This document shows, piece by piece, positions 6,306-51,032 of a DNA stretch of 64,000 nt. The notes beneath the pieces were generated by a model. The model worked only from the letters and a program-made list of their open reading frames with translations, did not search any database and had not been told where the DNA came from. Position 1 is the stretch's first letter; each line of letters opens with the position of its first letter. This stretch comes from Lysobacter sp. S4-A87 (lineage in GTDB: Bacteria > Pseudomonadota > Gammaproteobacteria > Xanthomonadales > Xanthomonadaceae), in the NCBI RefSeq assembly GCF_022637455.1, contig NZ_CP093341.1, positions 2,852,001 through 2,916,000 on the forward strand. The letters run 5' to 3'. The position numbers and the translations under genes were made by a program.

Positions 6306-6317
6306 GACAATGCCGAC
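6306..6317 (+). promoter_or_regulatory. predicted leaderless -10 element of the carboxylesterase gene
   Basis: GACAAT (6306-6311) is followed by six bases and then the ATG at 6318. In a sigma-70 promoter this places transcription start on the A of the ATG. No Shine-Dalgarno sequence is visible. The -35 region is weak. Confidence 0.4.
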
Positions 6318-7016
6318 ATGGATTCCACCGCCCCCCTGCTCGAAACGGTCGAGCACGAAACCGCCCCTTCGCCGACCTGGACCGTGCTGTGGTTGCACGG
6401 ACTGGGTGCCGACGGCCATGACTTCGCCCCGATCGTTCCCGAGCTGGTACGCCGCGACTGGCCGGCACTGCGCTTCGTGTTCCCGCATGCGCCGGTGCGC
6501 CCGGTCACGATCAACAACGGCATGCGCATGCGTGCCTGGTACGACATCGTCAGCTTCGACTTCGACGCACTGGCCGCCGGCAAGCGCGCTGACGAAGCCG
6601 GCGTGACCGAGTCGGTGGCCCAGGTCGAAGCCCTGATCGCCCGCGAAATCGCCCGCGGCATCGCGCCCGAGCGCATCGTCCTGATCGGCTTCTCGCAGGG
6701 CGGCGCGATCGCCCTGGCCTCGGCCCTGGGCCGCGAAACGCCCCTGGCCGGCATTGCCGGACTGTCGACCTACCTGCCGCTGGGGCAGCTGCAGGCGAAG
6801 GCAAAGCTGCGCCCGCCGGCGTTGTCGCAGCCGGTGTTCATGGCCCACGGCCAGTTCGATCCGGTGGTGCCGGCGGTGGTCGGCCAGATGGGTGCCGCGA
6901 CCATGAAGGACCTCGGCTTCACCCTGGAATGGCACGACTACCCGATGGCCCACCAGGTCTGCGCCGAGGAGATCCAGGCCCTGGGCGACTGGCTGGATAA
7001 GCGATTTGCGGGCTGA
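6318..7016 (+). CDS. alpha/beta-hydrolase carboxylesterase (phospholipase/carboxylesterase family)
   Basis: A 232-residue serine esterase of the EstB/acyl-protein-thioesterase type. Visible motifs are the oxyanion-hole region LHGLGADGHDF (26-36), the nucleophile elbow GFSQGG with Ser126, Asp181 in HGQFDPVVP and His212 in PMAHQ, which together make a complete triad. There is no signal peptide, so it is cytoplasmic. The open frame continues far upstream, antisense to czcC, but homology begins at MDSTAPLL, so ATG 6318 is taken as start. Substrate is unknown; family members hydrolyse short acyl esters. Confidence 0.9.
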   Translation: MDSTAPLLETVEHETAPSPTWTVLWLHGLGADGHDFAPIVPELVRRDWPALRFVFPHAPVRPVTINNGMRMRAWYDIVSFDFDALAAGKRADEAGVTESVAQVEALIAREIARGIAPERIVLIGFSQGGAIALASALGRETPLAGIAGLSTYLPLGQLQAKAKLRPPALSQPVFMAHGQFDPVVPAVVGQMGAATMKDLGFTLEWHDYPMAHQVCAEEIQALGDWLDKRFAG

Positions 7017-7098
7017 GTCGCATCTGCCCGATTGGTAGCGGGCGCTGGCGGGGGCTACCATCAGTCCCGAGGCAGTGCCCACCGGGTAGAGGCGCCAA

Positions 7099-7836
7099 AT
7101 GAGGATAGTGATCGCCGACGACGAGCCGCTGGCGCGCGAGCGCCTGCGGGGACTATTGGCCGAACAGCGCGGCGTTGAAGTCGTCGCCGAAGCGGCCGAT
7201 GGCCAGCATGCGCTGCATGCCTGCGCCGAACACCATCCCGACCTGGTGCTGCTGGACATCGCGATGCCGGGCATCGACGGCCTCGAGACGGCGCGCCACC
7301 TGGCTGCATTCGAGCCACGCCCGGCGGTGGTCTTCTGCACTGCCTACGACGCGCATGCACTGTCGGCATTCGAGGCCGAGGCGATCGATTACCTGGTCAA
7401 GCCGGTGCGCGCCGAACGCCTGGCCGCGGCACTGGAGCGCGTACGTACCTTTGCCGCCGGACGCGATCGCACCACGCCCGCTTCCGGCGCCGGCATCGGC
7501 CAGCGCCGCAGCCACCTGTGTGCGCGCCTGCGCGGCAGCCTGCGCCTGATCCCGATCGAGGACGTGCATTACCTGCAGGCCGAAGAGAAGTACGTGGTCG
7601 TGCACCACGCCCGCGGCGAAGACCTGATCGAAGAGTCGCTGAAGTCGCTCGAGGACGAGTTCGGCGAGCGCTTCGTCCGCATCCATCGCAACTGCCTGGT
7701 CGCACGCCACGAAATCGTCGAACTGCGGCGTGCCGCCGACGGCCACGTGCAGGCGGTGCTGCGCCACGGCAAGCAGCCGCTGGAAGTCAGCCGGCGCTGC
7801 GTGGCGGGGCTGAAGGAAACGCTCAAGCACCTGTAA
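7099..7836 (+). CDS. algR: LytTR-family response regulator AlgR
   Basis: A two-component regulator (245 aa) with an N-terminal receiver domain and a C-terminal LytTR DNA-binding domain. The receiver starts MRIVIADDEP (acidic pocket Asp7-Asp8), has the phosphorylation Asp53 in LLDIAMPG and the conserved Lys in VKPV near 102. The LytTR part (about 140-240) contains the typical segment IEDVHYLQAEEKYV. It lies directly before hemC as in Pseudomonas, where AlgR controls exopolysaccharide and type IV pilus genes. The usual partner kinase gene algZ is not adjacent; the upstream gene is an esterase. What it regulates here is unknown. Confidence 0.88.
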   Translation: MRIVIADDEPLARERLRGLLAEQRGVEVVAEAADGQHALHACAEHHPDLVLLDIAMPGIDGLETARHLAAFEPRPAVVFCTAYDAHALSAFEAEAIDYLVKPVRAERLAAALERVRTFAAGRDRTTPASGAGIGQRRSHLCARLRGSLRLIPIEDVHYLQAEEKYVVVHHARGEDLIEESLKSLEDEFGERFVRIHRNCLVARHEIVELRRAADGHVQAVLRHGKQPLEVSRRCVAGLKETLKHL

Positions 7837-7875
7837 ACGTCATCCCGGCCGGCACCGGGAGGGCGGGATGGCTGC

Positions 7876-7887
7876 GATAATGCCCGC
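7876..7887 (+). promoter_or_regulatory. predicted leaderless -10 element of hemC
   Basis: GATAAT (7876-7881), six bases, then ATG at 7888. This is the same geometry as upstream of ubiE and four other genes in the window, and predicts an mRNA starting at or next to the start codon. hemC may also be co-transcribed from algR, 51 bases upstream. Confidence 0.45.
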
Positions 7888-8802
7888 ATGACCACGCTCC
7901 GCATCGCCACCCGCAAGAGCCCGCTCGCCCTCTGGCAGAGCGAGCACGTCGCCGATCGCCTCCGCGCCACCCACCCCGCCCTGACCGTGACCCTGGTGCC
8001 GATGAGCACCCGCGGCGACGAAGTGCTCGACCGCTCGCTGGCGGCCATCGGCGGCAAGGGCCTGTTCCTCAAGGAGCTGGAGCTGGCGATGCTGCGCGGC
8101 GAAGCCGACTGCGCCGTGCACTCGCTCAAGGACGTGCCGATGGAGCTGGAGCCGGGCTTCGCCCTGCCGGCGATCCTGGCGCGCGCCGACTATGCCGACG
8201 CCTTCGTCAGCAACCACTTCGCCGACATCGCCGCGCTGCCGCAGGGCGCGCGCGTGGGCACCTCATCGTTGCGCCGCCAGGCGCAGCTGCGCGCGCTGCG
8301 TCCCGACGTGCAGCTGCTCGACCTGCGCGGCAACGTCAACACGCGCCTGGCCAAGCTCGACGGCGGCGAATACGACGCCATCGTGCTGGCCTGCGCCGGC
8401 CTGCAGCGCCTGGGCTTCGATGACCGCATCCGCGGTCGCCTCCAGGCCCCGGACTGGCTGCCGGCGCCGGCGCAGGGCGCGGTGGCGATCGAGTGCCGCG
8501 ACGACGACGTCGCCACCCGCGAGCTGTGTGCGCTGCTGGACGACAGCGTCACGCGCACCTGTGCCGAGGCCGAGCGGGCGATGAACCGCGCCCTGCATGG
8601 CAGTTGCCACGTGCCGGTGGCGGCGTACGCGCAGCTTCATGGCGAGCACCTGTATCTGGCCGGTCTCGTCGGCTCGGCCGCCGACGGTCGCGTCGTGCGC
8701 GCACAGGGCGAAGGCCGCGGCGATGCGCCCGAATGCCTGGGTCTGGAAGTCGCGCAGATGCTGCTGGAGCAGGGCGCCGGCGAGTTCATCGCGGCTGCGT
8801 AA
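7888..8802 (+). CDS. hemC: hydroxymethylbilane synthase (porphobilinogen deaminase)
   Basis: Cytoplasmic haem-pathway enzyme (304 aa) that joins four porphobilinogens into hydroxymethylbilane. Visible signatures are the N-terminal [13 protein letters not shown], the catalytic Asp82 in HSLKDVP, the Arg-rich substrate-binding part [11 protein letters not shown] (about 124-134), [11 protein letters not shown], and Cys240 in [13 protein letters not shown], which carries the dipyrromethane cofactor. Length is normal. It follows algR by 51 bases, a classical gammaproteobacterial pair. hemD does not follow directly; the next gene is convergent. Confidence 0.97.
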
Positions 8803-8824
8803 TTGCTGGTGTCGGCGAACGGCG

Positions 8825-9484
8825 TCAGAACCTGCGCCGCAGCTCCAGCTTGCTCTCGGCCGTCTCGCTGCCGCCGCCATTCTGCGTGTCGTGGCGGATC
8901 GCGAAGTCGCTTTCCAGCGACCAGTTCGACCACAGCTCCACGTCCAGGCTCAGCGACTGCTTGACGAAGGCCTCGCCGCGTCCGCTTTCGAACTGCACGC
9001 GCTGCGTCCATTGCGCGCGCTCACCGATCTTCTGGCCGAAATTGAGTTCGCCGCGCAGCACCGGGCCGGCCTGGTTGATGCCGTCGTCGTACAGCGGCGC
9101 CAGGCGGTAGCCGGCACCCAGGGTGAGGCCCAGCTGCGTCGGACCGTCGCGCATCGCCTGCACGCCGTAGCGCGTGCCGATGCGGAAATCATTGGAATAC
9201 GAGCTGCGGCTTTCGCGCGGCGTGGCCGGCGCGCTGAGTTGCGCATAGCGCTGGCTGCCGGGCAGGCGCAGCGTCTTCGCGCGTGCCGTGGTCGATGGCA
9301 CGGTCGGGGTCGGGGATGTCGCCAGCTGCCATTCCTCGTCGCCGCAGCGCGTGGAAAAGCAGTACAGCCGCATCTGCGCCGGATCACTCGCAATGGCGAT
9401 CAGCGTCGGGTCGCCATTCAACGCTGGCGAGGGCAGGGTGAGGATGGCGCCGCCCAGCAGGGCGACTCCGAGCACACCAAGCAT
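8825..9484 (-). CDS. DUF481-type outer-membrane beta-barrel protein (YdiY-like)
   Basis: A 219-residue protein whose C-terminal 120 residues show alternating beta-strand pattern (for example FVKQSLSLDVELWSNWSLES) and end in Phe, as expected for a small outer-membrane barrel. The pattern matches DUF481, whose members are called salt-induced outer-membrane proteins. The N-terminus MLGVLGVALLGGAILTLPSPAL can act as a signal sequence. The middle is Ser/Thr/Pro-rich. It is convergent with hemC, with 22 bases between them. Function is unknown. Confidence 0.7.
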   Translation of the reverse strand: MLGVLGVALLGGAILTLPSPALNGDPTLIAIASDPAQMRLYCFSTRCGDEEWQLATSPTPTVPSTTARAKTLRLPGSQRYAQLSAPATPRESRSSYSNDFRIGTRYGVQAMRDGPTQLGLTLGAGYRLAPLYDDGINQAGPVLRGELNFGQKIGERAQWTQRVQFESGRGEAFVKQSLSLDVELWSNWSLESDFAIRHDTQNGGGSETAESKLELRRRF

Positions 9485-9572
9485 GGTCGGAAGTGGCAGT
9501 GGTGGAGGGTCCGAATGATGCAGTGAAACCGGTTACAGGTCCACCCGACAGCGCGCAAAGTGCTGATTGCGT

Positions 9573-10571
9573 TCAGTAATAGAGCGTGACCAGGTGCCGC
9601 GCCTGGGCAAAAAACAGCCAGCGTTCGACGAATGCGCCGATCAGTGCCGACAGCGCCGCCAGCGGCATCGCCACCAGCCCGGAGCCGGGAAACGCCCATG
9701 TCAGGACCGCTGCGACCACCGGTATCAGACCGAACAGTGTCAACGCGATTGCCCGCAGCTTGTTCGCGTGTTTGCGCGCAACGACGAAGCCCATCTCGCG
9801 GGTCAGGTAGTTCTGCTCGCTGTGAGGACGCTCGAACACGCTGACCTCGCGCCCGGGCAACCCGACCGCATCGCCACGCGTCGCCGGCATGCCCTGGCCG
9901 TCGATATCGCGCCAGTAGCGCAGCTTGATCGCGACCAGGACAACGCTGACGACCGCGAGCACCAGCGCAAACGGTGTCGCCGTGTGCGGCACCAGGCCCG
10001 ATGCCTGCGTGGCTGCGATGGCGGCACCGACGATTGCCAGGCCGCCCTGCACGGCGAAGCCGAGGTACGCCGGGACGACCAGCGCGTGCTGCCACGCCGG
10101 AATCGGCTTGAGCGAGGCGTAGATCATCGCGGTACAACCAACCGTAAGCAGCGCCAGCACGGCAGTGGCCCCGCCCAGCACGGCAGCCGACATGGCGAAC
10201 GCATTGGCTTCGCGCTCGCTGCCGAGCCATGCAGCCAGTGTCAGCACGACCAGTGCCGCAGCCGGCACGTACGTAGCCAGCGCCAGCACGCCTTCGCGCG
10301 ACAGCCATGAAGTGCGCCACTGCGAAAACGCACGCCACGCGCGCATCGGCTTGCCCAGGTGGAACGTCGAGCTGAGCAGGCCCACGGTGACCAGGCCCAG
10401 CGCCAGCAGCAGCGCGGCGACCAGCAACGGCAGCATCGACGTCGCCGGTTCGTTGTCGCCCACCAGCAATTGCGTGCGCGGGCTGACGAGCATCGCGCCG
10501 AGCAGGGCGAGCACGCCGTAACCGGCGCCGGACAGCGTGGTGAAGAAGATGACGGACAGGGCAGGATGCAT
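9573..10571 (-). CDS. DmsC/SoeC-type membrane anchor of a molybdenum oxidoreductase
   Basis: Integral membrane subunit (332 aa, about eight helices) that anchors the catalytic and iron-sulphur subunits and exchanges electrons with quinone. The segment FHLGKPMRAWRAFSQWRTSW (about 70-89) is typical of DmsC/SoeC anchors. It begins 27 bases after the iron-sulphur gene and is the last gene of the minus-strand operon. The set of catalytic subunit, four-cluster ferredoxin and DmsC-type anchor matches SoeABC (cytoplasmic sulphite oxidation) about as well as DMSO reductase, so the direction and substrate remain open. Confidence 0.85.
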   Translation of the reverse strand: MHPALSVIFFTTLSGAGYGVLALLGAMLVSPRTQLLVGDNEPATSMLPLLVAALLLALGLVTVGLLSSTFHLGKPMRAWRAFSQWRTSWLSREGVLALATYVPAAALVVLTLAAWLGSEREANAFAMSAAVLGGATAVLALLTVGCTAMIYASLKPIPAWQHALVVPAYLGFAVQGGLAIVGAAIAATQASGLVPHTATPFALVLAVVSVVLVAIKLRYWRDIDGQGMPATRGDAVGLPGREVSVFERPHSEQNYLTREMGFVVARKHANKLRAIALTLFGLIPVVAAVLTWAFPGSGLVAMPLAALSALIGAFVERWLFFAQARHLVTLYY

Positions 10572-10598
10572 GTTCAGTTCACTTCAGGCGGCCGGCAT

Positions 10599-11384
10599 TC
10601 ATCGCGACAGCACGCGATCGACCCAGCGCAGCAGCGGCGACAACGCAGCAGAGTCGAGCGTTTCGGGCGCTTCGGCCGGAGCCTGCGTCGCAGCCGGTTG
10701 CGCGTCGCCTGCGCGCCGCGGCCGCGGCGGCAGGTACTTGTTGACCGGCTGGTAGCCCAGCTGCGGCAGCAGATCCACGCCGCCGCGTTCGGCCACCAGT
10801 CGGGACACCTTCGACTCCGGATCGCCGAGGTCGCCGAAATGGCGGGCACGGGTCGGGCAGGCCTGCACGCAGGCAGGCTGGCGTTCGGCTTCGTCCAGGT
10901 TCTCGTTGTAGATGCGGTCGATGCACAGCGTGCATTTCTTCATCACGCCTTCGACCGGGCTGTATTCGCGCGCGCCGTAGGGGCAGGCCCACGAGCACAG
11001 CTTGCAGCCGATGCATTTGTCCTCGTCCACCAGGACGATGCCGTCCTCGGCGCGCTTGAAGCTGGCGCCGGTCGGGCAGACAGTGACGCAGGCCGGCTGT
11101 TCGCAATGCAGGCACGAGCGCGGGAAATGCAGGGTCATGGCCGGCAGCGGCGTGGCGCTGCCACAGGTGCCGGCTTCAGTCGCTTCCACTTCGTAGCTGT
11201 GGACACGGTTGAACCAGACCCCGGTCGGATCCTTGCCGTAGGGCTGCTCGTCGGTCAGTGGTGCGGAGAAACCGCCGGTGTTCCATTCCTTGCAGCTCAC
11301 CGCGCAGGCGTGGCAGCCGACGCAGGTGTCGAGGTCGATCACCAGCCCCATCTTCTTCATCGATGGCGGCGGCAGGCCGGTCAT
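10599..11384 (-). CDS. four-cluster ferredoxin subunit (DmsB/SoeB type)
   Basis: Electron-transfer subunit (261 aa) between the molybdenum protein and the membrane anchor. Four cysteine groups are visible in order: CVGCHACAVSC, CLHCEQPACVTVC, CIGCKLCSWAC and CTLC with CVQAC, as in DmsB, PhsB and SoeB. There is no Tat signal, so the complex probably faces the cytoplasm, as in SoeABC. The open frame allows an ATG nine codons earlier, but ATG 11384 overlaps the stop of the upstream small gene as ATGA, so coupled translation from 11384 is preferred. Confidence 0.92.
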   Translation of the reverse strand: MTGLPPPSMKKMGLVIDLDTCVGCHACAVSCKEWNTGGFSAPLTDEQPYGKDPTGVWFNRVHSYEVEATEAGTCGSATPLPAMTLHFPRSCLHCEQPACVTVCPTGASFKRAEDGIVLVDEDKCIGCKLCSWACPYGAREYSPVEGVMKKCTLCIDRIYNENLDEAERQPACVQACPTRARHFGDLGDPESKVSRLVAERGGVDLLPQLGYQPVNKYLPPRPRRAGDAQPAATQAPAEAPETLDSAALSPLLRWVDRVLSR

Positions 11385-11599
11385 CGCGGACTGTCCTTCA
11401 GCAACAGCCACACGCCGACCGCGAACAGCGCGATCGAGAAGGTCGTGCTGGGCAGCAGGCCCATCAGCGTCGGCAACATCGAGGTGGAACCGGTCGGGGT
11501 GATGAACGGAAGTTCGAATGCGCCGAAGCCGAGCAGCACCACCAGCACGAAGCTGAGCAGGATGCAGGTCCAGCCGGCCAGGTAGCGCACTACTTTCAT
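11381..11599 (-). CDS. 72-residue membrane protein within the molybdoenzyme operon
   Basis: A short protein with two hydrophobic helices (about residues 8-30 and 52-68) joined by a Thr/Ser/Pro-rich loop, ending LLLKDSPR. Its ATG overlaps the stop of the catalytic gene as ATGA (11596-11599), and its stop overlaps the ATG of the ferredoxin gene in the same way (11381-11384). It is therefore translated between two subunits of the complex. I do not recognise a family. An assembly factor or an additional small membrane subunit is the natural inference. SoeABC and DmsABC operons as I know them lack it. Confidence 0.75.
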   Translation of the reverse strand: MKVVRYLAGWTCILLSFVLVVLLGFGAFELPFITPTGSTSMLPTLMGLLPSTTFSIALFAVGVWLLLKDSPR

Positions 11600-14595
11600 C
11601 GCGACGATTTCCTGCGGAATTGCGCGCCGTAGCGCAGCGGTTGATCGTTGGCCTGGCCGAGCTCGAGCGGCGGGAACTGCGGCTGGCTTTCGGTGCTCTC
11701 GTCGGCCACCGAAGCGTTGGCGGCCTTGGCGATCCGCACGCGCAGATCGAACCAGGCCGCCTGCCCGGTCACCGGGTCGGCGTTGGCATAGTCGCCGCGC
11801 GGCGTGATGTCGGAGATCAGATGATTGAGCAGGAAACCCTGCCGCCCTTCCGGCGCATCCTTGCCCAGCCGCCAGGCGCCGCGTCGCTTGCCGATGGCGT
11901 TCCACGTCCAGACCGTGTCGGGCTGCACGTTGGCGGCGAACTTGGCCTGCACGGTGATCGTGCCGTTGTGCGAAGTCACATCGATCCAGTCCTCGTCGCC
12001 GATGCCATGGCGCGCGCCGGTATCGGGATGCATGTAGAGCCAGTTGCGCGCGGCGATCTGGCGCAACCACGCATTCTGCGAACCCCAGGCGTGGTACATG
12101 AACATCGGGCGTTGCGTGACCGCACTCAACGGAAACGCGTGCAATCCATTGGCCCCCTCCCCCTCAAGGGGGCGAGCGCTTGCGGACCACTGGTCCGCGC
12201 TCGACCGAACGCCCGCAGGCTGCGCCGGAGGGCCGGACGGGTCGGGGAGGGGATGGGTTCCAGCCGCCGCACCCCGCGAAGTCTGCTCCCCCTCAAACGG
12301 CTCAAACCAGATCGGCAACGGATCAAAGTAGGTAGCCACCCGCTCGCGATGCTCCTGCGGCGGCTGCAAAGCCCCGTGCCCCTGCGCCGCCAGCCTGAAC
12401 TTCTGCAACGTCTCCGAATAAAGCTGCAACACGATCGGTTCGGCATGGCCGATGAAACCCATGCGCTGCGCCCAGTCCAGGTAGCCGCGATTGGCCATCT
12501 TGAAGTAGCGCGCATCCTCGGGCACTTCGCTGCGCCAGAACCCGCCGTTGTCGATGTAACGCTGCAACTGGTCCGGATTGGGCGGTCCCTTGGCTTCCAG
12601 CTCGCCATCGGCGCCGCGCCAACCGGCGAGCAGGCCGACGCCCGGCGCGCGCTCGTGGCGGGTGATGTAGTCGGCGTAGTCGCGGTACTTCGCCGAGCCG
12701 TCCTCGTTGACCAGCCCGGGCAGTCCGATCCGCGCGCCCAGCTCGATCAGCACCGACTGGAACCCGCGCACGTCGCGCCCGGGGCTCTGCTCGGCGGCAT
12801 CGAGGACGGGGTGGCGGATCGCATCGGCGGCGCCGTCGGCATCGGAGATCGGCCGATCGAGCAGGCTGATCGCGTCGAAACGCTCCAGGTAGGTCGTGTC
12901 GGGCAGCACCAGGTCGGCATAGGCGACCATTTCCGACGCATAGGCATCGGCGTAGATGATGCGCGGGATGCGGTACTCGCCCGACTCGTCCCTGTCGGTG
13001 AGCCACTGCATGGTCTGCGTGGTGTTCATCGCCGAGTTCCAGCTCATGTTGGCCATGAACATCATCAGCGTGTCGATCCGGTACGGGTCGCCGGCCCAGG
13101 CATTGCGGATGACGGTGTGCATCATGCCGTGCGCCGACAGCGGATAGGCCCACGAGAACGCATGGTCGATGCGACGCGGTTGCCCGTCAGCGTCGACGAC
13201 CAGGTCTTCGGGTGCGTGCACGAAGCCGAGCGGCGCCGCATCGAGCACGCCATTGTCCTGGCGGCGCTTGCCGGGCCGGTTCGGCGGCGGAATGGGCTTG
13301 GGGAACGGCGGCTGGTAGCGGAACGAGCCCGGCGTGTCGACCGCGCCCAGCAGCAGCTGCAGCAGGTGCAGCGCGCGGCAGGTATGGAAGCCGTTGCTGT
13401 GCGCGCTGATGCCGCGCATCGCATGCATCGCCACCGGACGTCCGCGCATGGTCGCGTGCTCGCGTCCCCAGGCATCCGTCCAGGCGATGGGCAGTTCGAT
13501 GGCGTGGTCGAACGCCGCTTCGGCCAGCTCGCGCGCGATGCGGCGGATGGTGTCGGCGGGAATGCCGCAACGCTCGCTGACCGCGTCGGGCGAATACTGC
13601 GGGTCGAGGTAGCGCTCGGCGACCAGGTGGAAGACCGGAACGGCGCGACGACCATCGGCCAGGACGAACTCGCCGACCACGGCCGGCGACACGCCGACAT
13701 CGCTGGCATTCGCCGGGCCCGCGGCCTGGCAATCCCAGCACAGCGCATCGCCGTCGTCATTGCGGGCGAACAGCCCGTCATCGGAGCCGCCGGGATTGCG
13801 CACCACCAGCCAGTGCGCATTGGTGTAGCGCACCAGGTAATCGAGGTCGATGCGATCGGCCTTGAGCAGCTCATGGGCGAGGGCGAAAGCGAACAGGCCG
13901 TCGGTGCCGGGACGGATGCCGATCCATTCGTCGGCAATCGCCCCGTAGCCCGAGCGCACTGGATTCACCGCGACTATCTTGGCGCCGCGTCCCTTCAGCT
14001 GGCCCAGGCCGAGCTTGATCGGATTGGAATCGTGGTCTTCGGCCACGCCCCACATCATCAGGTAGCGCGTGTGCTCCCAGTCGGGCTCGCCGAACTCCCA
14101 GAAGCTGCCACCTAGCGTGTACAGCCCGCCGGCGGCCATGTTCACCGAGCAGAATCCACCGTGCGCGGCGTAGTTGACCGTTCCGAACTGCTGCGCCCAC
14201 CAGCCGGTCAGGGCCTGCGACTGGTCGCGGCCGGTGAAGAACGCCAGCTCGTCGGGATTGCGCGCGCGGATCGGCGCCAGCCACGAGCTGGCGATCTCCA
14301 GCGCCTCGTCCCACTCGATCTCGCGGAACTCACCGCTGCCGCGCTCGCCCACGCGCAGCAGCGGCTTGTCCAGCCGCGCCGGCGAGTAGTGCTGCATGAT
14401 CCCGGCCGAACCCTTGGCGCACAGCACGCCGCGGTTGACCGGATGCTCCGGGTTGCCCTGGATGTAGCGGATCTGTCCGTCGCGCAGCCACACCTTGATG
14501 CCGCAACGGCACGCGCACATGTAGCACGTGGTGGTCCTGACCTCGTCGGCGGTCCGGGGTGACAGATCGATGGCTGGCTCAACGGGCGCGCGCAT
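11596..14595 (-). CDS. molybdopterin oxidoreductase catalytic subunit (SoeA-like)
   Basis: A 999-residue enzyme of the DMSO-reductase superfamily holding Mo-bis-MGD and a [4Fe-4S] cluster. The cluster ligands are Cys24, Cys27 and Cys31 (CYMCACRC) and Cys59 (LCAKG). The likely Mo ligand is Cys149 in GGFCSVNMA, at the position used by NapA and formate dehydrogenase. The C-terminal MopB domain starts near residue 825 (MYHAWGSQNAWLRQIAARNW). No Tat signal is present, so a cytoplasmic location is expected, which fits SoeA (sulphite oxidation) better than DmsA. Residues about 778-815 are encoded by a palindromic repeat and look foreign (THPLPDPSGPPAQPAG). Substrate is inferred, not shown. Confidence 0.85.
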   Translation of the reverse strand: MRAPVEPAIDLSPRTADEVRTTTCYMCACRCGIKVWLRDGQIRYIQGNPEHPVNRGVLCAKGSAGIMQHYSPARLDKPLLRVGERGSGEFREIEWDEALEIASSWLAPIRARNPDELAFFTGRDQSQALTGWWAQQFGTVNYAAHGGFCSVNMAAGGLYTLGGSFWEFGEPDWEHTRYLMMWGVAEDHDSNPIKLGLGQLKGRGAKIVAVNPVRSGYGAIADEWIGIRPGTDGLFAFALAHELLKADRIDLDYLVRYTNAHWLVVRNPGGSDDGLFARNDDGDALCWDCQAAGPANASDVGVSPAVVGEFVLADGRRAVPVFHLVAERYLDPQYSPDAVSERCGIPADTIRRIARELAEAAFDHAIELPIAWTDAWGREHATMRGRPVAMHAMRGISAHSNGFHTCRALHLLQLLLGAVDTPGSFRYQPPFPKPIPPPNRPGKRRQDNGVLDAAPLGFVHAPEDLVVDADGQPRRIDHAFSWAYPLSAHGMMHTVIRNAWAGDPYRIDTLMMFMANMSWNSAMNTTQTMQWLTDRDESGEYRIPRIIYADAYASEMVAYADLVLPDTTYLERFDAISLLDRPISDADGAADAIRHPVLDAAEQSPGRDVRGFQSVLIELGARIGLPGLVNEDGSAKYRDYADYITRHERAPGVGLLAGWRGADGELEAKGPPNPDQLQRYIDNGGFWRSEVPEDARYFKMANRGYLDWAQRMGFIGHAEPIVLQLYSETLQKFRLAAQGHGALQPPQEHRERVATYFDPLPIWFEPFEGEQTSRGAAAGTHPLPDPSGPPAQPAGVRSSADQWSASARPLEGEGANGLHAFPLSAVTQRPMFMYHAWGSQNAWLRQIAARNWLYMHPDTGARHGIGDEDWIDVTSHNGTITVQAKFAANVQPDTVWTWNAIGKRRGAWRLGKDAPEGRQGFLLNHLISDITPRGDYANADPVTGQAAWFDLRVRIAKAANASVADESTESQPQFPPLELGQANDQPLRYGAQFRRKSSR
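12151..12263 (-). repeat. palindromic repeat inserted in frame inside the molybdoenzyme gene
   Basis: On the minus strand it starts CTGGAACCCATCCCCTCCCC (12263-12244) and ends with CCCCTTGAGGGGGAGGGGGCC or similar (12171-12151). Both ends recur at 51054-51100 before lipB, with one mismatch in the second. The interior holds two more hairpins. The reading frame stays open through it, adding about 38 residues between the catalytic core and the C-terminal domain. Confidence 0.8.
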
Positions 14596-14607
14596 CCTGG
14601 CATTGTG
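14596..14607 (-). promoter_or_regulatory. predicted leaderless -10 element of the molybdoenzyme operon
   Basis: Read on the minus strand, CACAAT (14607-14602) is followed by six bases and the ATG at 14595. This is the same arrangement as hemC and ubiE. No Shine-Dalgarno sequence is visible before this ATG. Confidence 0.4.
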
Positions 14608-14852
14608 CCTGCGACGCCGCGGGCAAGCGACCGGGCATGCAGGCGGACCGACGCTAGCCGCTCAAAGTCGGCACAGGCCCTTCTCGAATCGAGTGGTTGC
14701 TGCAATGCCGCACCGTCACCGGCGAGCCGGTGGTCTCGTGGCAAGCGCCCGCGCCAGCGCCGGGCATGACCATTGGCAGCACCGCTTCCCGCCGCGAACC
14801 CCGGGGGCGGATCCATTGCGACCCTGCCGCTCCTGCGCCCGTCGCCAGACGG

Positions 14853-14882
14853 CGGTTAAGCAACAGTTATCGAAATTAACCG
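14853..14882. promoter_or_regulatory. inverted repeat, candidate operator
   Basis: CGGTTAA (14853-14859) and TTAACCG (14876-14882) form a perfect 7-bp inverted repeat 16 bases apart. Inside lies a second, smaller one, GTTA-N7-TAAC. The patch is unusually AT-rich for this genome and sits between the divergent molybdoenzyme operon and WYL regulator, so binding by that regulator is a reasonable guess. Confidence 0.4.
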
Positions 14883-15014
14883 GCGCCAGCGACCCGCCAG
14901 CGGCGCCAGCGCGCTGGCGCCGACCTTGACCGCAGACCCAGTCGTCGAGGTTCGTGCTGGCGGCGGATGCGCCGGCAGTGCGATCCTTGCGGCTGTTTCC
15001 CTGCCGTCACGCCC

Positions 15015-15983: not shown

Positions 15984-16051
15984 CCCGCACAGTCGCAACC
16001 CCTGAGACCCCGCCCCAGCACGCTCGCTCCATCCACCCAGGAGCCAGCGCC

Positions 16052-21493: not shown

Positions 21494-21505
21494 TACACTG
21501 CGGCC
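21494..21505 (+). promoter_or_regulatory. predicted leaderless -10 element of lptM-dapF
   Basis: TACACT (21494-21499), six bases, then ATG at 21506. It predicts a transcript starting at the start codon of lptM and running through dapF, the DUF484 gene and xerC. Confidence 0.45.
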
Positions 21506-21811
21506 ATGAACGCAACTCCCGCCCCACGACAGATCCTCATCGCGCTGTCCCTGGTCGCGCTGCCGCTGGCCCTGGCCGGCTGCGGCAACAAGGGCCCGCT
21601 GATCCTGGCGCCCAAGTCGATCCCGGTCGACCCGTCGACCCTGCCGCCGATGACACCGCCGGCCGAGCCGACGCCCACCACCGACGAGCCGGCGACCGAC
21701 GAGCCGGCCACGACCGTGCCGGCAAGCGACGCCGACGACGTCGACGGCAAGAAGAAGGGCACCGCCGAGCCGACTCCGGTCCCGAAGCAGGCCGACGAAA
21801 CCGATGGCTGA
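21506..21811 (+). CDS. lptM: small lipoprotein LptM (YifL type)
   Basis: A 101-residue outer-membrane lipoprotein. The signal peptide ends LALAGC (Cys26), followed by [10 protein letters not shown], the conserved start of LptM. In E. coli LptM stabilises the LptDE complex that inserts lipopolysaccharide. The remainder is a disordered Pro/Thr/Asp/Glu tail longer than in E. coli, with a short tandem repeat ([10 protein letters not shown]). It overlaps dapF by eight bases, the standard lptM-dapF arrangement. Too short and too overlapped to be picked by length alone; the lipobox and neighbour decide the call. Confidence 0.88.
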
Positions 21812-33687: not shown

Positions 33688-33746
33688 TGCAGCGAGGCTC
33701 CTCGGGGCCGGGCCTGGAGTCGGGCCCGGGAATTGCACGTTGATGC

Positions 33747-33758
33747 GATAATCGCCAG
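33747..33758 (+). promoter_or_regulatory. predicted leaderless -10 element of ubiE
   Basis: GATAAT (33747-33752), six bases, then ATG at 33759. It predicts a transcript starting at the ATG. Only 71 bases separate ubiE from the divergent emrB. Confidence 0.5.
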
Positions 33759-34535
33759 ATGAACCAGTCAAGCTCCGACAAGCCCGGCGACAAGACCGGC
33801 ACCACGCACTTCGGCTTTCGCGACGTTCCCACCGGCGAGAAGCAGAAGCTGGTCGGCCAGGTCTTCTCTTCGGTCGCCGGCAAGTACGACCTGATGAACG
33901 ACCTTATGTCGCTGGGCGTGCACCGCGTGTGGAAGCGCTATTTCGTCGGCACCGCCCAGGTCAAGCGCGGCGACCGCGTCCTCGACCTGGCGGGCGGCAC
34001 GGGCGACATCGCCCTGCTGCTGCGCGACCGCGTCGGCGACGCCGGCAGCATCGTGCTGGGCGACATCAACGGCGAGATGCTGCGCGTCGGCCGCGACCGC
34101 ATGACCGACATGGGCAAGGTCGCCGGCTTCGAGTACGTGCAGATGAACGCCGAGAAGCTGCCGTTCCCGGACGCCAGCTTCGACCTGGTGACGATCGCCT
34201 TCGGCCTGCGCAACGTCACCGACAAGGACGCGGCGCTGCGCGAGATGCATCGCGTGCTGAAGGTCGGCGGGCAGGCGCGCGTGCTGGAGTTCTCGGAAGT
34301 GAAGGCCGACTGGTTCAAGCCGATCTACGACTTCCACTCGTTCAAGGTGCTGCCGCAGCTGGGCAAGCTGTTCGCGAACGATTCCGACAGTTACCAGTAC
34401 CTGGCCGAGAGCATCCGCAAGCATCCGCCGCAGGACGAGTTGAAGGCGATGATGCAGGAAGCGGGGTTCGCGCGCTGCGACTATCGCAACCTGTCGGGCG
34501 GGATCGTCGCGATCCACACCGGTTACAAGGTCTAG
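33759..34535 (+). CDS. ubiE: ubiquinone/menaquinone methyltransferase UbiE
   Basis: SAM-dependent C-methyltransferase (258 aa) in ubiquinone synthesis. The SAM-binding motif is VLDLAGGTGDIALLL (about 74-88). The family signatures YDLMNDLMSLGVHRVWK and LRNVTDKDAALREMHRVLK are both present, as is the C-terminal NLSGGIVAIHTGYK. Length is normal. No other ubi gene is adjacent. Its 3' end is followed by a perfect 31-bp inverted repeat that could terminate it. Confidence 0.96.
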   Translation: MNQSSSDKPGDKTGTTHFGFRDVPTGEKQKLVGQVFSSVAGKYDLMNDLMSLGVHRVWKRYFVGTAQVKRGDRVLDLAGGTGDIALLLRDRVGDAGSIVLGDINGEMLRVGRDRMTDMGKVAGFEYVQMNAEKLPFPDASFDLVTIAFGLRNVTDKDAALREMHRVLKVGGQARVLEFSEVKADWFKPIYDFHSFKVLPQLGKLFANDSDSYQYLAESIRKHPPQDELKAMMQEAGFARCDYRNLSGGIVAIHTGYKV

Positions 34536-40516: not shown

Positions 40517-40541
40517 CGTCGATACCCCAAAAAGAAAATAG

Positions 40542-41853
<1,312 letters not shown>

Positions 41854-43090: not shown

Positions 43091-43572
43091 CCCGCGTCCG
43101 TCCGCAATGGGTGCTGCCGCTGAGCCTGGTCATGGCGCTGTTCCTGGGCCTGCTGCCGCTGCCGCCGACGCTGCAGCCGTTGCGCCCGTACTGGCTGGCG
43201 CTGGTGCTGGCCTATTGGGTGATCGAAGACCCCGACCATATCGGCCTGGGCGTCGCTTTCCTCGTCGGCCTGGCCGGTGACCTGGTCTACGGCAGCCTGT
43301 TCGGCGAGCAGGCGCTGCGGCTGGTGGTGATGGCGTACATCCTGCAGCGCTTCCGCGCGCGCCTGCGCTTCTTCCCGATGTCGCAACAGGCCCTGGCCAT
43401 CGGCGGCCTGCTGCTCAACGACCGCATCGTCACCGCCGCGATCCATATAGCAGTGGGCGAGCCGACGCTGCCGGCCTCGTTCTGGCTGGCGCCGCTGGCG
43501 GGCATGCTGCTGTGGCCGCTGCTGTTCGTGGGCCTGGACTCGCTGCGACTGGGCCGCTGGCGGGGGCGTTGA
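43087..43572 (+). CDS. mreD: rod-shape protein MreD
   Basis: A 161-residue inner-membrane protein (about five helices) of the elongation complex. The opening LPLSLVMALFLGLLPLPPTL, the central EDPDHIGLGVAFLVGLAGDL and VYGSLFGEQALRLVVMAYIL follow MreD. Its ATG overlaps the mreC stop (ATGA). The following mrdA starts two bases after its stop, so mreC-mreD-mrdA-rodA form one tightly coupled unit. Confidence 0.92.
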   Translation: MTRVRPQWVLPLSLVMALFLGLLPLPPTLQPLRPYWLALVLAYWVIEDPDHIGLGVAFLVGLAGDLVYGSLFGEQALRLVVMAYILQRFRARLRFFPMSQQALAIGGLLLNDRIVTAAIHIAVGEPTLPASFWLAPLAGMLLWPLLFVGLDSLRLGRWRGR

Positions 43573-43574
43573 CG

Positions 43575-45608: not shown

Positions 45609-46717
45609 GACAGATCCTGCGCTGGCTGTTCGACCTGATCGTGCGCTTCATGCGCACGCTCGACCTGCCGCTGCTCGGCGCCCTGCTGGCGCTGATGGTG
45701 ATCGGCCTGGCCGTGCTCTACAGCGCTGCCGACCACGCCGTGGGCCTGGTCGTGCGCCAGGGCGCCTTCTTCGTCGCCGGCCTCGGCATCATGTGGGCGC
45801 TGTCGCGCATTCCGCCCAACCAGCTGCGCAACTGGACGCCCCTGGTGTTCGGTCTGTCACTGATACCGCTGGTGCTGGTCCTGCTGATCGGCACCGGCAA
45901 GCACGGTCGCCACTGGATCAACCTGGGCGTGGTGTACGTGCAACCGGCCGAGCTGCTCAAGCTGAGCCTGCCGATGATGGTGGCCTGGTACCTCGACCGG
46001 CAGTCGCTGCCGCCGCGGTTCCGCACCGTGCTGATCGCCGGCGTGCTGATCGCGGTGCCGACCGGCCTGATCCTGCTGCAGCCGGACTTCGGCACGGCGA
46101 TGCTGGTCGCCGTCAGCGGCGCGTTCGCGCTGTACCTGGCCGGCCTGCCGTGGTGGTGGTTCGGCATGGCCTTCGGCGCCGTCGCCGCGATCGCGCCGGT
46201 GGCGTGGTTCTGGCTGCTGCGCCCGTACCAGCAGAACCGCATCCTGACCTTCCTCAATCCCGAGTCCGATCCGCTCGGCACCGGCTGGAACATCATCCAG
46301 TCGAAGATCGCCATCGGTGCCGGCGGCCTCACCGGCAAGGGTTGGGGGCAGGGCTCGCAGTCGCACCTGAACTACCTGCCCGAGCACACCACCGACTTCA
46401 TCTTCGCCGTGCTCAGCGAGGAGTTCGGCTGGATCGGCGTGGCCACGGTGCTGTCGCTGTACCTGTTCGTGATCGGCCGCTGCCTGTGGATCGCCGCGGA
46501 AGCGCGCGACGGCTATTCGCGCCTGATCGCCGGCGCCCTCGGCCTGGCGCTGTGCGTCTATGTGATCGTCAACGGCGGCATGATCTCGGGCATGTTGCCG
46601 GTGGTCGGCGTGCCGATGCCGCTGCTGAGCTATGGCGGTACGTCGGCGGTGTCGCTGCTGGCGGGCCTGGGCGTGGTGATGGCGGTGCGGGCGCATCGGC
46701 CGGTGTACGCGCGCTGA
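45605..46717 (+). CDS. rodA: SEDS glycosyltransferase RodA
   Basis: Polytopic peptidoglycan glycosyltransferase (370 aa, about ten helices) that polymerises lipid II with PBP2. Family motifs are GRHWINLGVVYVQPAELLKL, the large loop with QNRILTFLNPESDPLGTGWN and SHLNYLPEHTTDFIFAVLSE (catalytic Asp in HTTDF), and the final VPMPLLSYGGTS. ATG 45605 overlaps the mrdA stop (ATGA). The very long upstream frame across mrdA is a shadow and is not part of the gene. Confidence 0.96.
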   Translation: MRQILRWLFDLIVRFMRTLDLPLLGALLALMVIGLAVLYSAADHAVGLVVRQGAFFVAGLGIMWALSRIPPNQLRNWTPLVFGLSLIPLVLVLLIGTGKHGRHWINLGVVYVQPAELLKLSLPMMVAWYLDRQSLPPRFRTVLIAGVLIAVPTGLILLQPDFGTAMLVAVSGAFALYLAGLPWWWFGMAFGAVAAIAPVAWFWLLRPYQQNRILTFLNPESDPLGTGWNIIQSKIAIGAGGLTGKGWGQGSQSHLNYLPEHTTDFIFAVLSEEFGWIGVATVLSLYLFVIGRCLWIAAEARDGYSRLIAGALGLALCVYVIVNGGMISGMLPVVGVPMPLLSYGGTSAVSLLAGLGVVMAVRAHRPVYAR

Positions 46718-46724
46718 GCGTCTG

Positions 46725-46773
46725 CCCCTCGCCTTGACCGCCTGCGGCGGCCGGAAGGGACGGGAGAGGGGGC
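46725..46773. repeat. degenerate CCCCTC-type palindromic repeat after rodA
   Basis: Begins CCCCTCGCC and ends GGGAGAGGGGGC, with CCGCCTGCGGCGG in the middle. It may terminate the mre-mrd-rod transcript before mltB. Confidence 0.45.
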
Positions 46774-46876
46774 GCCTGAGCCCTCCTCCCATTCAGCAAC
46801 CCCAACCTGACTACCAGTTCAGCCAACCCTGAACACACGGTTTTGGCGTCCTTGACCGCGTGCTACCCTCGCGGCG

Positions 46877-48037
46877 ATGACCCGACGCCACACTCTCCGT
46901 AGCGCCGTGATCAGCGCGCTCCTGTTCGCGTTGGCCGGCTGCGCCACTCAAGCTTCGGCGCCAGCCCCCCAACAAACTCCCGCCAAACCTGCTGCCCCGG
47001 CCACCTCGGTCCCGGGCACGCCTGCGTTGCCCGAGCCGCACGTGCGCAAGGCGCTGCCGGAGGCGCGTGCCGCCTTCGTGCGCGATACCGCCGCCCAGTA
47101 CGGCATCGACCCGGCCTACATCGAGTCGGTCCTGGACCGCGCCGAGATCCGCGACAGCATCATCGCCGCGATGTCCAAGCCGGCCGAAGCCAAGCCGTGG
47201 CGCGACTACCGGCCGATCTTCATCACCCAGGCGCGCATCGACGGAGGCCGCGCCTTCCTCGCCGAGCACCGGGCCGAACTCGATCGCGCCCAGGCGCAGT
47301 ACGGCGTCCCGGCGGAAGTGATCGTTTCGATCATTGGCGTGGAAACCAATTTCGGCAAGAACACCGGCAGCTATCCGGTGGTCGATGCCCTGTACACCCT
47401 GGCCTTCGCCTATCCGCGTACCGGCGACCCGGCCAAGGCCGATCGCGAGAACCGCCGCGAGGCGTTCTTCCGCGGTGAGCTGGGCCAGCTGTTCGCGCTG
47501 GGCAAGGAAACCGGCCTGGACATCACCACGCTCACCGGCAGCTACGCTGGCGCCATGGGCTGGGGCCAGTTCATGCCGTCGAGCTACCGCGAGTACGCCG
47601 TCGACGGCAACGGTGACGGCAAGCGCGACCTGTTCAACAACCTCGACGATGTCTTCGCCTCCATCGCCAACTACTTCGCCAAGAAGGGCGGATGGGTGCG
47701 CGGCGGTCCGGTCACGGTGCGCGCCAACGCTGCCGCCGATGCCAAGGCCATCGAGCCGGAAAACCTCGACCCGGTGTATTCGATGGCGGACCTCGCCCAG
47801 CGTGGCTTCCGTCCGCTGACGACGGTCCCGTCCGGCCAGACCGCCACGGTGGTCAAGCTCGACGGTGTCGACGGCCCGGAGTACTGGTTCGGCTTCCGCA
47901 ACTACTACGCCATCACCCGCTACAACATCTCCAAGCACTACGCGATGGCGGTGTACCAGCTCAGCGAGGCCATCGCCGGCCGCGCCAACGAACCCGCCGC
48001 CGCCACCGCCGTCGTTGCCACACCGCCCTCGACATGA
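46877..48037 (+). CDS. mltB: membrane-bound lytic transglycosylase B
   Basis: Outer-membrane lipoprotein (386 aa; signal ends LALAGC, Cys22) that cleaves glycan strands. The catalytic Glu is in SIIGVETNFGKNTGSYPV (about 155). YAGAMGWGQFMPSSYREYAV and DLFNNLDDVFASIANYF follow the family closely. A TACCCT hexamer ends seven bases before its ATG. The gene precedes rlpA with a four-base overlap, so two peptidoglycan-cleaving lipoproteins are translated together. Confidence 0.96.
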   Translation: MTRRHTLRSAVISALLFALAGCATQASAPAPQQTPAKPAAPATSVPGTPALPEPHVRKALPEARAAFVRDTAAQYGIDPAYIESVLDRAEIRDSIIAAMSKPAEAKPWRDYRPIFITQARIDGGRAFLAEHRAELDRAQAQYGVPAEVIVSIIGVETNFGKNTGSYPVVDALYTLAFAYPRTGDPAKADRENRREAFFRGELGQLFALGKETGLDITTLTGSYAGAMGWGQFMPSSYREYAVDGNGDGKRDLFNNLDDVFASIANYFAKKGGWVRGGPVTVRANAAADAKAIEPENLDPVYSMADLAQRGFRPLTTVPSGQTATVVKLDGVDGPEYWFGFRNYYAITRYNISKHYAMAVYQLSEAIAGRANEPAAATAVVATPPST

Positions 48038-49239
48038 GGTCCACGGCCATGCATTGCAGCCTTGTTCGTTCAACCCTCATCGCCGCGATGGCGTTGGGGC
48101 TGGTCGCCTGCGCCAGTGCGCCGAAGAAATCCGTTTCCCAGCCCGCCGGCATCCCCGACAAGGGCGGCGTCCAGCACAGCCAGCTGCCGGACGGGAAGGG
48201 CAAGAAGAAGTCACCGTACGCGCCGGCGCAGGAAGATCCGCGCACGCGCGGCAACTACACCGCCGGCGGTCTGTACAAGCCGGGTGTGTCCGACAGCACG
48301 CCCGACCACGTGCCGGATGTCGACTCCATTCCCGAACCCGAGGTCACCAACGAGCCGCGCTCGCCGGTCGGCAATCGCGCCAGCTACTCGGTGCTCGGCA
48401 AGAAATACCGCGTGCTCGACGACCCCAGGGGTTACGTCGAGAAGGGCACGGCGTCCTATTACGGCCAGAAGTTCCACGGCCGCCGCACCTCCAACCTGGA
48501 GGTGTACGACATGTACGCCTTCACCGCCGCGCACAAAACGTTGCCGCTGCCGAGCTTCGCCCGCGTCACCAACCTCGACAACGGCAAGTCGGTGGTGGTC
48601 CGGGTCAACGATCGCGGCCCGTTCCACGACGGTCGCGTCATCGACCTGAGCTACGCCGCGGCGGTCAAGCTCGGCATCACCGCGCGCGGCACCGGACGCG
48701 TGGAAGTGCGCGCGCTGGCGCCCGGCGACGATGATCGGCCGGTGCGCGCTTCTGCGCCGGCCAAGCCTGCGAATCCCGCCAGTCCCGCACCCACGCCGAC
48801 GCCGATCGACCGCCTGATCGCGGCGATGCCGGTTGCCAGCGCCCGCGCCGGCGAGCTGCCCCCGGGCGTGCGCATCGCCACCGGCAAGCCGACATCGATG
48901 GTGGCCGCCGGCGCAGTTGCCGCGGCGACCGGTGTCGCGACCGCGCCGCTGCCGGCGGCGCCCGCATCGACCGTGACTGCGACGCCAGTACCGACCGCCA
49001 GCGCCGCCGATGGCGTGGTCCTGCAGGTGGCCAGTTTCACCGCCCGTGCCAATGCCGACCGCGCGCTGACGACGCTGCGCCAGGCCGGCATCGACACCGC
49101 CCAGATCAGCGATGCCAGCGCCAACGGCCAGACCATCTGGCGCCTGCGCGTGGGCCCGTTGCAGGCCGCGCAGGCCCCGGAACTTGCGGCCCGCATCGCA
49201 GGTCTTGGATTCGGCCAGCCGCAGCGCGTCCGCGACTAG
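48034..49239 (+). CDS. rlpA: septal-ring lytic transglycosylase RlpA with SPOR domain
   Basis: Outer-membrane lipoprotein (401 aa; lipobox LGLVAC). The double-psi barrel is at about 125-225 (GTASYYGQKFHGRRTSN, VRVNDRGPFHDGRVIDLSY with the catalytic-type Asp). A Pro/Ala-rich linker follows, then a C-terminal SPOR domain from about 325 (VVLQVASFTARANADRALTT) that binds denuded glycans at division sites. ATG 48034 overlaps the mltB stop; ATG 48049, with GAGG upstream, is an alternative that also keeps the signal peptide. Confidence 0.93.
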   Translation: MRSTAMHCSLVRSTLIAAMALGLVACASAPKKSVSQPAGIPDKGGVQHSQLPDGKGKKKSPYAPAQEDPRTRGNYTAGGLYKPGVSDSTPDHVPDVDSIPEPEVTNEPRSPVGNRASYSVLGKKYRVLDDPRGYVEKGTASYYGQKFHGRRTSNLEVYDMYAFTAAHKTLPLPSFARVTNLDNGKSVVVRVNDRGPFHDGRVIDLSYAAAVKLGITARGTGRVEVRALAPGDDDRPVRASAPAKPANPASPAPTPTPIDRLIAAMPVASARAGELPPGVRIATGKPTSMVAAGAVAAATGVATAPLPAAPASTVTATPVPTASAADGVVLQVASFTARANADRALTTLRQAGIDTAQISDASANGQTIWRLRVGPLQAAQAPELAARIAGLGFGQPQRVRD

Positions 49240-49312
49240 AATTCCATCCCTCAGAACCACACACCCCAAAGAACGGGCCGGCACGTCGCCGGCCTCCGGA
49301 GCAGTTGAGACA

Positions 49313-50533
49313 ATGAAAGTACCCGCTCTTGCCAGAGCCGCCGCCCTGGCCGCGGTCACCACGCTGGTGACCGGCCTCGCCATCGCCCAGGCGCCGACGC
49401 CGCAGCCGGCCGCCCCTGCGCTGCCGGCCGCCAGCGACTCGCTGCCGGTCCCGCCGCCGCCGCAGATCACTGCCAGCGCGTGGGTGCTGATGGATGCCGC
49501 CAGCGGCAACATCCTGGCCGGCGAGAACTACGACCAGCGGGTCGAGCCGGCCAGCATCACCAAGGTGATGACCAGCTATGTCATCGCCGCCGAGCTCGCC
49601 GCCGGCAAGGTCAAGGACACCGACCAGGTGATGATGAGCGAGAACGCCTGGCGCACCGGCGGCGCCGGCACCGACGGCAGTTACTCCGGTTTCGAGGTCA
49701 ACAAGACCGCGCCGCTGGTGCAGATGGAAAAGGGCATGGTGGTGCAGTCCGGCAACGATGCCGCGATCGCCCTGGCAGAACACGTCGCCGGTTCCACCGA
49801 CGCCTTCGCCGCACTGATGAACCAGTACGCCGCGCGCATCGGCATGAAGGGTTCGCACTTCGTCAATCCGCACGGCCTGTCGGCGGAAGGGCATTACTCG
49901 ACCGCGCACGACCTGGCCCTGCTTGGCCGCGCCCTGATCCACGACTACCCGGTTGCGTACTCGTACAACAAGATCAAGGAATTCACGGTCGGCCCGATCA
50001 CCCAGCCCAACCGCAACCTGCTGCTGTGGCGCGATCCGTCGGTCGACGGCATCAAGACCGGCCACCACTCCGGCGCCGGTTACTGCCTGATGGCCTCGGC
50101 GATGCGCGGCGACCAGCGCCTGATCTCGGTGGTGATGGGTTCGAGCAGCGAGAACCAGCGCGCCGTCGATTCGCAGGCGCTGTTGAACTGGGGCTTCCGC
50201 TTCTTCGAGACGCACAAGCTCTACGACGTCGGCAAGCAGATCGCCAAGCAGAAGGTGTGGAAGGGCGCCGCCGACGAAGTCCAGCTCGGCGTCGCCGAGC
50301 CGCTGCTGGTGACCGTGCCGCGCGGCAAGTACAACCAGCTCAAGCCGATGATGGACGTGCCCAAGACCCTGGTCGCGCCGATCGCCAAGGGCCAGAAGAT
50401 CGGCACCGTGAAGGTGATGCTGGATGGCAAGATCGTCTCGCAGCGCCCGCTGGTGGCGATCAACGCGGTCGAGCAGGGCGGCTTCTTCAAGCGCCTGTGG
50501 GACGAGTTGTGGATGTGGTGGGAGTCGGAGTGA
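49313..50533 (+). CDS. dacC: D-alanyl-D-alanine carboxypeptidase (PBP5/6 type)
   Basis: Periplasmic low-molecular-weight PBP (406 aa) that trims the terminal D-Ala of peptidoglycan. The signal peptide is cleaved near AIAQA. Active-site motifs are Ser81 in ASITKVM, SGN in VQSGNDAA (about 144) and KTG in GIKTGHHSG. The C-terminal PBP5 beta-domain is followed by an amphipathic anchor (FFKRLWDELWMWWESE). GGAG lies upstream of ATG 49313. It follows rlpA by 73 bases and ends in a clear terminator. Confidence 0.95.
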   Translation: MKVPALARAAALAAVTTLVTGLAIAQAPTPQPAAPALPAASDSLPVPPPPQITASAWVLMDAASGNILAGENYDQRVEPASITKVMTSYVIAAELAAGKVKDTDQVMMSENAWRTGGAGTDGSYSGFEVNKTAPLVQMEKGMVVQSGNDAAIALAEHVAGSTDAFAALMNQYAARIGMKGSHFVNPHGLSAEGHYSTAHDLALLGRALIHDYPVAYSYNKIKEFTVGPITQPNRNLLLWRDPSVDGIKTGHHSGAGYCLMASAMRGDQRLISVVMGSSSENQRAVDSQALLNWGFRFFETHKLYDVGKQIAKQKVWKGAADEVQLGVAEPLLVTVPRGKYNQLKPMMDVPKTLVAPIAKGQKIGTVKVMLDGKIVSQRPLVAINAVEQGGFFKRLWDELWMWWESE

Positions 50534-50573
50534 TCCGCGCCTGACAGAGATCTGCACCTGACTGCAGCAACGG

Positions 50574-50602
50574 GAAGCCGGCGAAAGCCGGCTTCTTCGT
50601 TT
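50574..50602 (+). terminator. intrinsic terminator of dacC
   Basis: Perfect 9-bp stem GAAGCCGGC-GAAA-GCCGGCTTC (50574-50595) followed by TTCGTTT. The GNRA-type loop is typical of stable terminators. Confidence 0.85.
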
Positions 50603-50612
50603 CCGGACGGAC

Positions 50613-50692
50613 GTAGCCCGGGTAAGCGCAGCGCACCCGGGGCATGGCCGCCCACGGCCCCCGGGTGCGGCCTGCGGCCTTACCCGGGCTAC
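50613..50692. repeat. paired REP element (second copy)
   Basis: The left arm GTAGCCCGGGTAAGCGCAGC (from 50613) and a diverged right arm ending TTACCCGGGCTAC (50692) face each other. It has the same family and orientation as 34555-34631, with substitutions in the inner half of the right arm. Confidence 0.88.
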
Positions 50693-50741
50693 TGGTCTTC
50701 TGTGTTGCGCGCGAAGTCTTGGGTTCGCCCACCCCCGGACC

Positions 50742-50753
50742 CATAATCGGCCC
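50742..50753 (+). promoter_or_regulatory. predicted leaderless promoter of ybeD-lipB
   Basis: TTGGGT (50719-50724), a 17-base spacer, CATAAT (50742-50747), six bases, ATG at 50754. This is the best-supported of the leaderless candidates because a partial -35 box is also in place. Confidence 0.55.
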
Positions 50754-51032
50754 ATGGAAATCAAATCCGACAACCCCGACCACGGCTTCCAGTTCCCCGG
50801 CACCTTCGAGCTCAGCGCCATGGGCGCAGCCGAGAAGGACCTGGAGACGGTGCTGCCGACGTTGTTGCTGGATGCCGGCATCGAAGTCGTCAGCGAGTCC
50901 GTGAGCTGGAAGCACTCGAGCAACGGCCGCTACGTCTCGGTGCGGATCAGTTTCCGAGCCGACAGCCGCGAGCAGTACGACCTGGCGCATGCGGTGCTGC
51001 GGGAGCATCCGGAAGTGAAGTGGACGCTGTAG
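50754..51032 (+). CDS. ybeD: YbeD family protein (DUF493)
   Basis: A 92-residue cytoplasmic ferredoxin-like-fold protein with the family features [20 protein letters not shown] and [20 protein letters not shown]. It lies between dacC and lipB exactly as in enterobacteria (dacA-ybeD-lipB). Its molecular role is unknown, although the conserved place suggests a link with lipoylation or wall synthesis. Confidence 0.92.

Follow-up and report, generated by a model that had tools for sequence, protein, structure and literature searches.

The window analysed here, bases 2,852,001–2,916,000 (64,000 nucleotides) of the one-contig genome of Lysobacter sp. S4-A87 (3,888,505 bases), carries six genes in which a hexamer resembling a sigma-70 -10 element is located exactly six bases before an ATG, a layout that predicts leaderless mRNAs. 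On the plus strand, the putative -10 hexamers GACAAT (6306–6311), GATAAT (7876–7881) and TACACT (21494–21499) precede ATG 6318 of an Abhydrolase_2 (carboxylesterase/phospholipase) gene of 232 amino acids (6318–7016), ATG 7888 of hemC, encoding hydroxymethylbilane synthase (7888–8802), and ATG 21506 of lptM, encoding a small lipoprotein (21506–21811), respectively. On the same strand, TGC followed by GATAAT (33744–33752) forms a putative extended -10 element before ATG 33759 of the methyltransferase gene ubiE (33759–34535), and CATAAT (50742–50747) precedes ATG 50754 of ybeD (DUF493; 50754–51032). On the minus strand, CACAAT (14602–14607) precedes ATG 14595 of a molybdopterin oxidoreductase gene of 999 amino acids (11596–14595); this site was read via the printed reverse complement and the end of the open reading frame (ORF) at 14595. 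The genes were identified from ORFs together with family matches (abhydrolase, molybdoenzyme and ubiE), a family match and relatives (lptM), or family models (hemC and ybeD, the latter model covering residues 1–92 of 92). Direct reading of the sequence bore out the positions and the six-base distance that a sequence-only reading had claimed for all six hexamers. The seven-base spacing it had claimed for two further genes was also seen: TACCCT (46864–46869, plus strand) lies before ATG 46877 of an mltB-like transglycosylase gene (SLT_2) and TACGCT (55491–55496, plus strand) before ATG 55504 of an O6-methylguanine-DNA methyltransferase gene (55504–56334).

The start codon of hemC is well fixed because its family model begins at residue 4, and the ybeD model begins at residue 1. 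The starts of mutM and tdk, two candidates outside the window, are likewise fixed, so that in these four genes the family models begin at residues 1–4. The starts of genes without such an anchor are predictions. The gene caller used a simple coding model blind to upstream signals, and its choices differed from starts 6318, 14595 and 21506, all three of which are supported by relatives. For the molybdoenzyme it placed the start 34 codons further in than 14595. Around the abhydrolase gene it called an ORF at 4404–7016, which was rejected in its 5' part: on the opposite strand that region is occupied by a gene encoding an outer-membrane efflux protein (4428–5720), and homology puts the start at about 6318.

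Pairing of the six genes with the core of the anti-Shine-Dalgarno (anti-SD) sequence ranged from -3.2 to +0.3 kcal/mol, compared with -5.8 kcal/mol for hslV; by eye, osmC shows AGGAG and a YbaK-like gene GGAGG. The contrast with these three neighbours drawn by the sequence-only reading was thus found, but it is not universal, as the gene right after hslV (25010) pairs at only -2.1 kcal/mol. Across an evenly drawn sample of the genome (1.264 Mb, 865 called ATG starts), median SD pairing was -1.3 kcal/mol in 50 genes with a hexamer at the expected distance and -4.3 kcal/mol in the 815 others (p = 1.4e-10). Pairing of -4.5 kcal/mol or stronger was found in five of the 50 candidates and in 49% of the others. 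These 50 candidates were obtained by joining two rules, the strict TANNNT and a wide rule (A at position 2, T at position 6 and at least four of six matches to TATAAT); about 5.5 were expected by chance, which leaves about 5% of ATG-start genes once these are subtracted, or roughly 140 predicted leaderless genes if extrapolated to the genome.

The genome-wide enrichment of TANNNT-N6-ATG that had been proposed as a check was found. In an annotation-free count over 1.2 Mb of evenly sampled genome, TANNNT stood before ATG 67 times at a spacing of 6 and 47 times at 7, against 7–40 times at every other spacing from 0 to 30; GTG and TTG showed no peak in the same count. Before the 865 called ATG starts, TANNNT occurred 28 times at spacing 6, 10 times at 7 and 0–2 times at any one of the remaining spacings up to 24, and counts rose again from 26 on, where ordinary leaders would begin. 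At spacings 6–7 it was present before 38 of 865 ATG starts versus two of 172 GTG/TTG starts, the latter without a peak. Leaderless genes strongly prefer an AUG start codon. A same-strand gene no more than 30 bp upstream was less common for genes with the hexamer at 6 or 7 (9% of 35) than for the 830 others (27%). Within the window, the wide rule found three of 44 called ATG starts at spacing 6 and none at any other spacing from 0 to 16. Strict TANNNT showed no excess there, with none of the 44 at spacing 6 and one at spacing 7, since its first T is missing from five of the six hexamers and the caller had picked a different start for lptM. With the loose pattern NANNNT, the spacing spectrum was uninformative, as three-base periodicity swamped the signal.

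A count over the whole genome gave 190 instances of TANNNT-N6-ATG and 79 with the control spacing N9. The N6/N9 ratio had a median of 1.07 over 115 genomes drawn from the same class. The highest value, 2.41, was that of this genome, followed by 2.14 in the only further genome of its family among the 115. The excess of N6 over N9 was significant (p < 0.01/115) in seven of the 115 genomes. Elsewhere in the class, the excess was significant in G063, G086, G120, G127 and G140.

Conservation was assessed in the best-scoring loci of relatives: for hemC, 80 named loci that were the best of 497 confirmed, and the 30 best-scoring loci for each of the other five genes, for which 47 to 60 genomes had a match and whose sets each include the window's own locus. 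The closest named hemC relative was Lysobacter prati (95% protein identity), which places the organism in Lysobacteraceae (Xanthomonadaceae). For hemC, the hexamer was found at 5–7 bases in 79 of 80 loci, at exactly 6 in 73, and read GATAAT in 70; three of 79 relatives start with GTG, and the upstream sequence shows little conservation except for the two bases preceding the hexamer. For ubiE, all 30 loci had the hexamer at 5–7, with TGC directly before it in the consensus, and this distance was kept although the position of the ATG with respect to the homologous part varied within a range of about 20 codons (a hand count from match start and offset). For ybeD, 26 of 30 loci had the hexamer at 5–7. 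The rule for lptM was looser, accepting the first T in place of four of six matches and spacings of 5–8; 26 of 30 loci had TACACT or TATACT, once TACCAT, at 6–7, three loci lacked the lipoprotein frame and one lacked the hexamer. The abhydrolase and molybdoenzyme genes were positive at 5–7 in 19 of 30 and 17 of 26 usable loci, counts that each include one doubtful GTG case that looks spurious (L219 and L256, respectively); four of the 30 molybdoenzyme loci (L255, L257, L259 and L260) were excluded since the match began inside the protein. When the distance was shifted for the five genes other than lptM, only 0–4 loci per gene were positive in each of five control bands. The upstream regions of ybeD and ubiE look like whole promoters, because ubiE keeps the extended -10 and ybeD keeps a putative -35 hexamer, TTGGGT (50719–50724, plus strand), 17 bases before the -10 within a conserved CTTGGGTTTG block in 27 aligned ybeD loci. 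Separately, the molybdoenzyme match splits near residues 775–820 in many relatives, suggesting a hypervariable stretch there.

Across the wider order, 79 genomes matched hemC and 70 loci were read, of which 69 had a usable start; L306 gave none and is not in the tree. Three states were distinguished, with family codes (f115, f116, f119, f121, f125) used for the wider-order genomes. In the first, hemC has its own -10 at 5–7 bases (10 of 11 loci in the window's family, three of three in f115, two of two in f119 and one ATG case in f125); in L324, the eleventh locus of the window's family, SD pairing is strong (-11.2). In the second, a -10-like hexamer is followed by a longer leader: in the f125 loci L301–L304 and L309, GACAAT lies 28–46 bases before the ATG. 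This is no more than suggestive of a sister family in which a promoter followed by a longer leader stands in for the leaderless arrangement. GACAAT at 28–31 bases is also present in three A/T-rich f121 loci (L342, L343 and L345), possibly by chance. In the third state neither layout is seen, and the gene often lies close behind an upstream reading frame, as in f116. When the 69 loci were placed on a hemC protein tree, four changes were needed to explain the leaderless label (14.6 with shuffled labels), and at least three of the four are forced by well-supported branches; the rule-positive loci L312, L315 and L357 were hand-labelled as other (non-ATG or A-rich). If the hexamer is a promoter element, a similar -10 is expected in orthologues with and without a leader. 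The abhydrolase orthologues L226, L228, L213, L211 and L220, which have GCATAAT or GCATACT and then a leader that in some contains a purine-rich SD-like stretch ahead of the start codon, are the leadered counterpart of the leaderless gene predicted in the window.

These results make it very probable that the six genes yield leaderless mRNAs from sigma-70 promoters abutting the ATG. The hexamers would be -10 elements placed such that transcription begins at the A of the start codon, and ribosomes would read from the 5'-terminal AUG without a Shine-Dalgarno sequence; we infer the transcription start from the known distance between -10 and +1, and the mode of translation from knowledge of leaderless mRNAs. 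The leaderless reading is supported because spacing, poor SD pairing, ATG-only use, genome-wide excess and a conserved distance between hexamer and ATG all agree. Several observations weigh against it. Read-backwards controls gave 167 for N6, close to the 190 observed, and 162 for N9, where 79 were observed; therefore, the argument rests on the comparison between spacings. A common -35 element was sought in the 50 candidates and none was found. Three hemC relatives with the leaderless layout show SD-like pairing (L295 and L296 at -8.6, L294 at -5.0), which in L295 and L296 stems from GGAGG upstream of the hexamer. In addition, the ybeD hexamer lies at 8 and 9 bases in L182 and L180, respectively, 11 of 30 abhydrolase and nine of 26 molybdoenzyme loci fail the rule, and the choice of best-scoring loci under-samples the remotest members. 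The sequence-only reading had described a group of first genes translated without a leader. The leaderless part is supported by the sequence comparisons, and first genes applies only loosely, as hemC and lptM lie 51 and 53 bp, respectively, downstream of a same-strand reading frame. The six do not form a special group: they are the local members of a class that spans the genome and takes in about 5% of ATG-start genes.

One alternative accepts the promoters but places the start of translation at a codon further downstream; the messages would then carry ordinary leaders, and an ATG at +1 would be incidental. The domain matches of the molybdoenzyme and the abhydrolase begin only at about residue 19, a variable N-terminus that makes a downstream start possible, and the caller's start 34 codons inward in the molybdoenzyme fits it. 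However, the hemC and ybeD models reach residues 4 and 1, relatives keep hexamer and ATG together despite changes in N-terminal length, and the spacing peak is absent for GTG and TTG, which leaves this explanation improbable. It is less probable still, and in our view very unlikely, that the hexamers are A/T-rich unstructured patches aiding ribosomes (S1-type) on messages started further upstream, as such patches would account neither for an exact hexamer at an exact distance, nor for the conserved -35 of ybeD at 17 bases and the extended -10 of ubiE, nor for GACAAT 28–46 bases upstream of the ATG in sister-family hemC. That the hexamers are chance matches selected by eye, to which the first T of TANNNT missing from five of six and the 5–6 of 50 sample candidates expected anyway might point, is hardly credible and is contradicted by the genome-wide spacing peak and by conservation in relatives.

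Beyond predicted leaderlessness as such, nearly all sampled family members have the leaderless layout, the putative leaders of sister-family hemC are roughly 20–40 bases and intermediate spacings are rare. For these reasons we raise, as a speculative and rather doubtful extension, that at a housekeeping core (hemC, ubiE, lptM and ybeD) long-term selection acts on leaderlessness itself and not on the promoter alone; translation mode would then be a heritable trait with two states, through which haem, quinone and envelope synthesis might be coupled to ribosome state.

Zheng et al. 2011 (PMC3160421) predicted leaderless (TA-led) genes; of 239 gammaproteobacterial genomes, 15 had them, most of these belonging to Xanthomonadales or Legionellales, and in those genomes on average 4.5% (3.0–5.7) of genes were leaderless. 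The signal there, TANNNT about 12 bp before the start, is the same as here, and the proportions are alike (4.5% there, about 5% of ATG-start genes here). The six genes belong to this class already predicted for Xanthomonadales, and our result agrees with that study in the passages compared. In contrast to the present analysis, those passages hold no gene-level list for this family, and hemC is absent from the main text. The sequence comparisons add the depth of conservation per gene, an order-wide estimate of three or four state changes in hemC, and orthologues with a similar -10 and a longer leader. In Deinococcus-Thermus, according to the part of PMC12340547 consulted, a -10 motif adjacent to the ORF likewise acts as a promoter of leaderless genes; there too the motif lies a few bases before the ORF, but the phylum differs and about 30% of ORFs are concerned, as opposed to about 5% here. 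The transcriptome of Mycobacterium tuberculosis also has leaderless mRNAs, judging by the title of the paper (PMC3898074); those were mapped experimentally, whereas the ones here are predicted. Among the matches listed, all of them open papers, there was none mapping leaderless mRNAs in Lysobacteraceae. Start-codon annotation and promoter prediction in this family can apply the hexamer–ATG rule directly, and hemC, with three or four state changes on one gene tree, offers a comparative case for the gain and loss of leaders in bacterial genes.

Further genes predicted to be leaderless were identified outside the window: mutM (L040:13365–14177, minus strand), tdk (L040:9207–9830), nhaA (L048:13120–14361), a moeB-like gene (L006:17491–18615), rnhA (L019:6236–6736, minus strand) and pcm (L042:16288–17028). 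The candidates include the DNA-repair genes Ada/AlkA (L055:13191–14768, minus strand), the O6-methylguanine-DNA methyltransferase gene of the window and mutM, numbers too small for an enrichment test. The gene behind lptM has MHGAGNDF near its start and is presumably dapF. Finally, a short tandem repeat of GAGCGTGCCCCATT units is located directly 5' of the position in the window (30854, minus strand) at which the caller starts a GNAT acetyltransferase gene.
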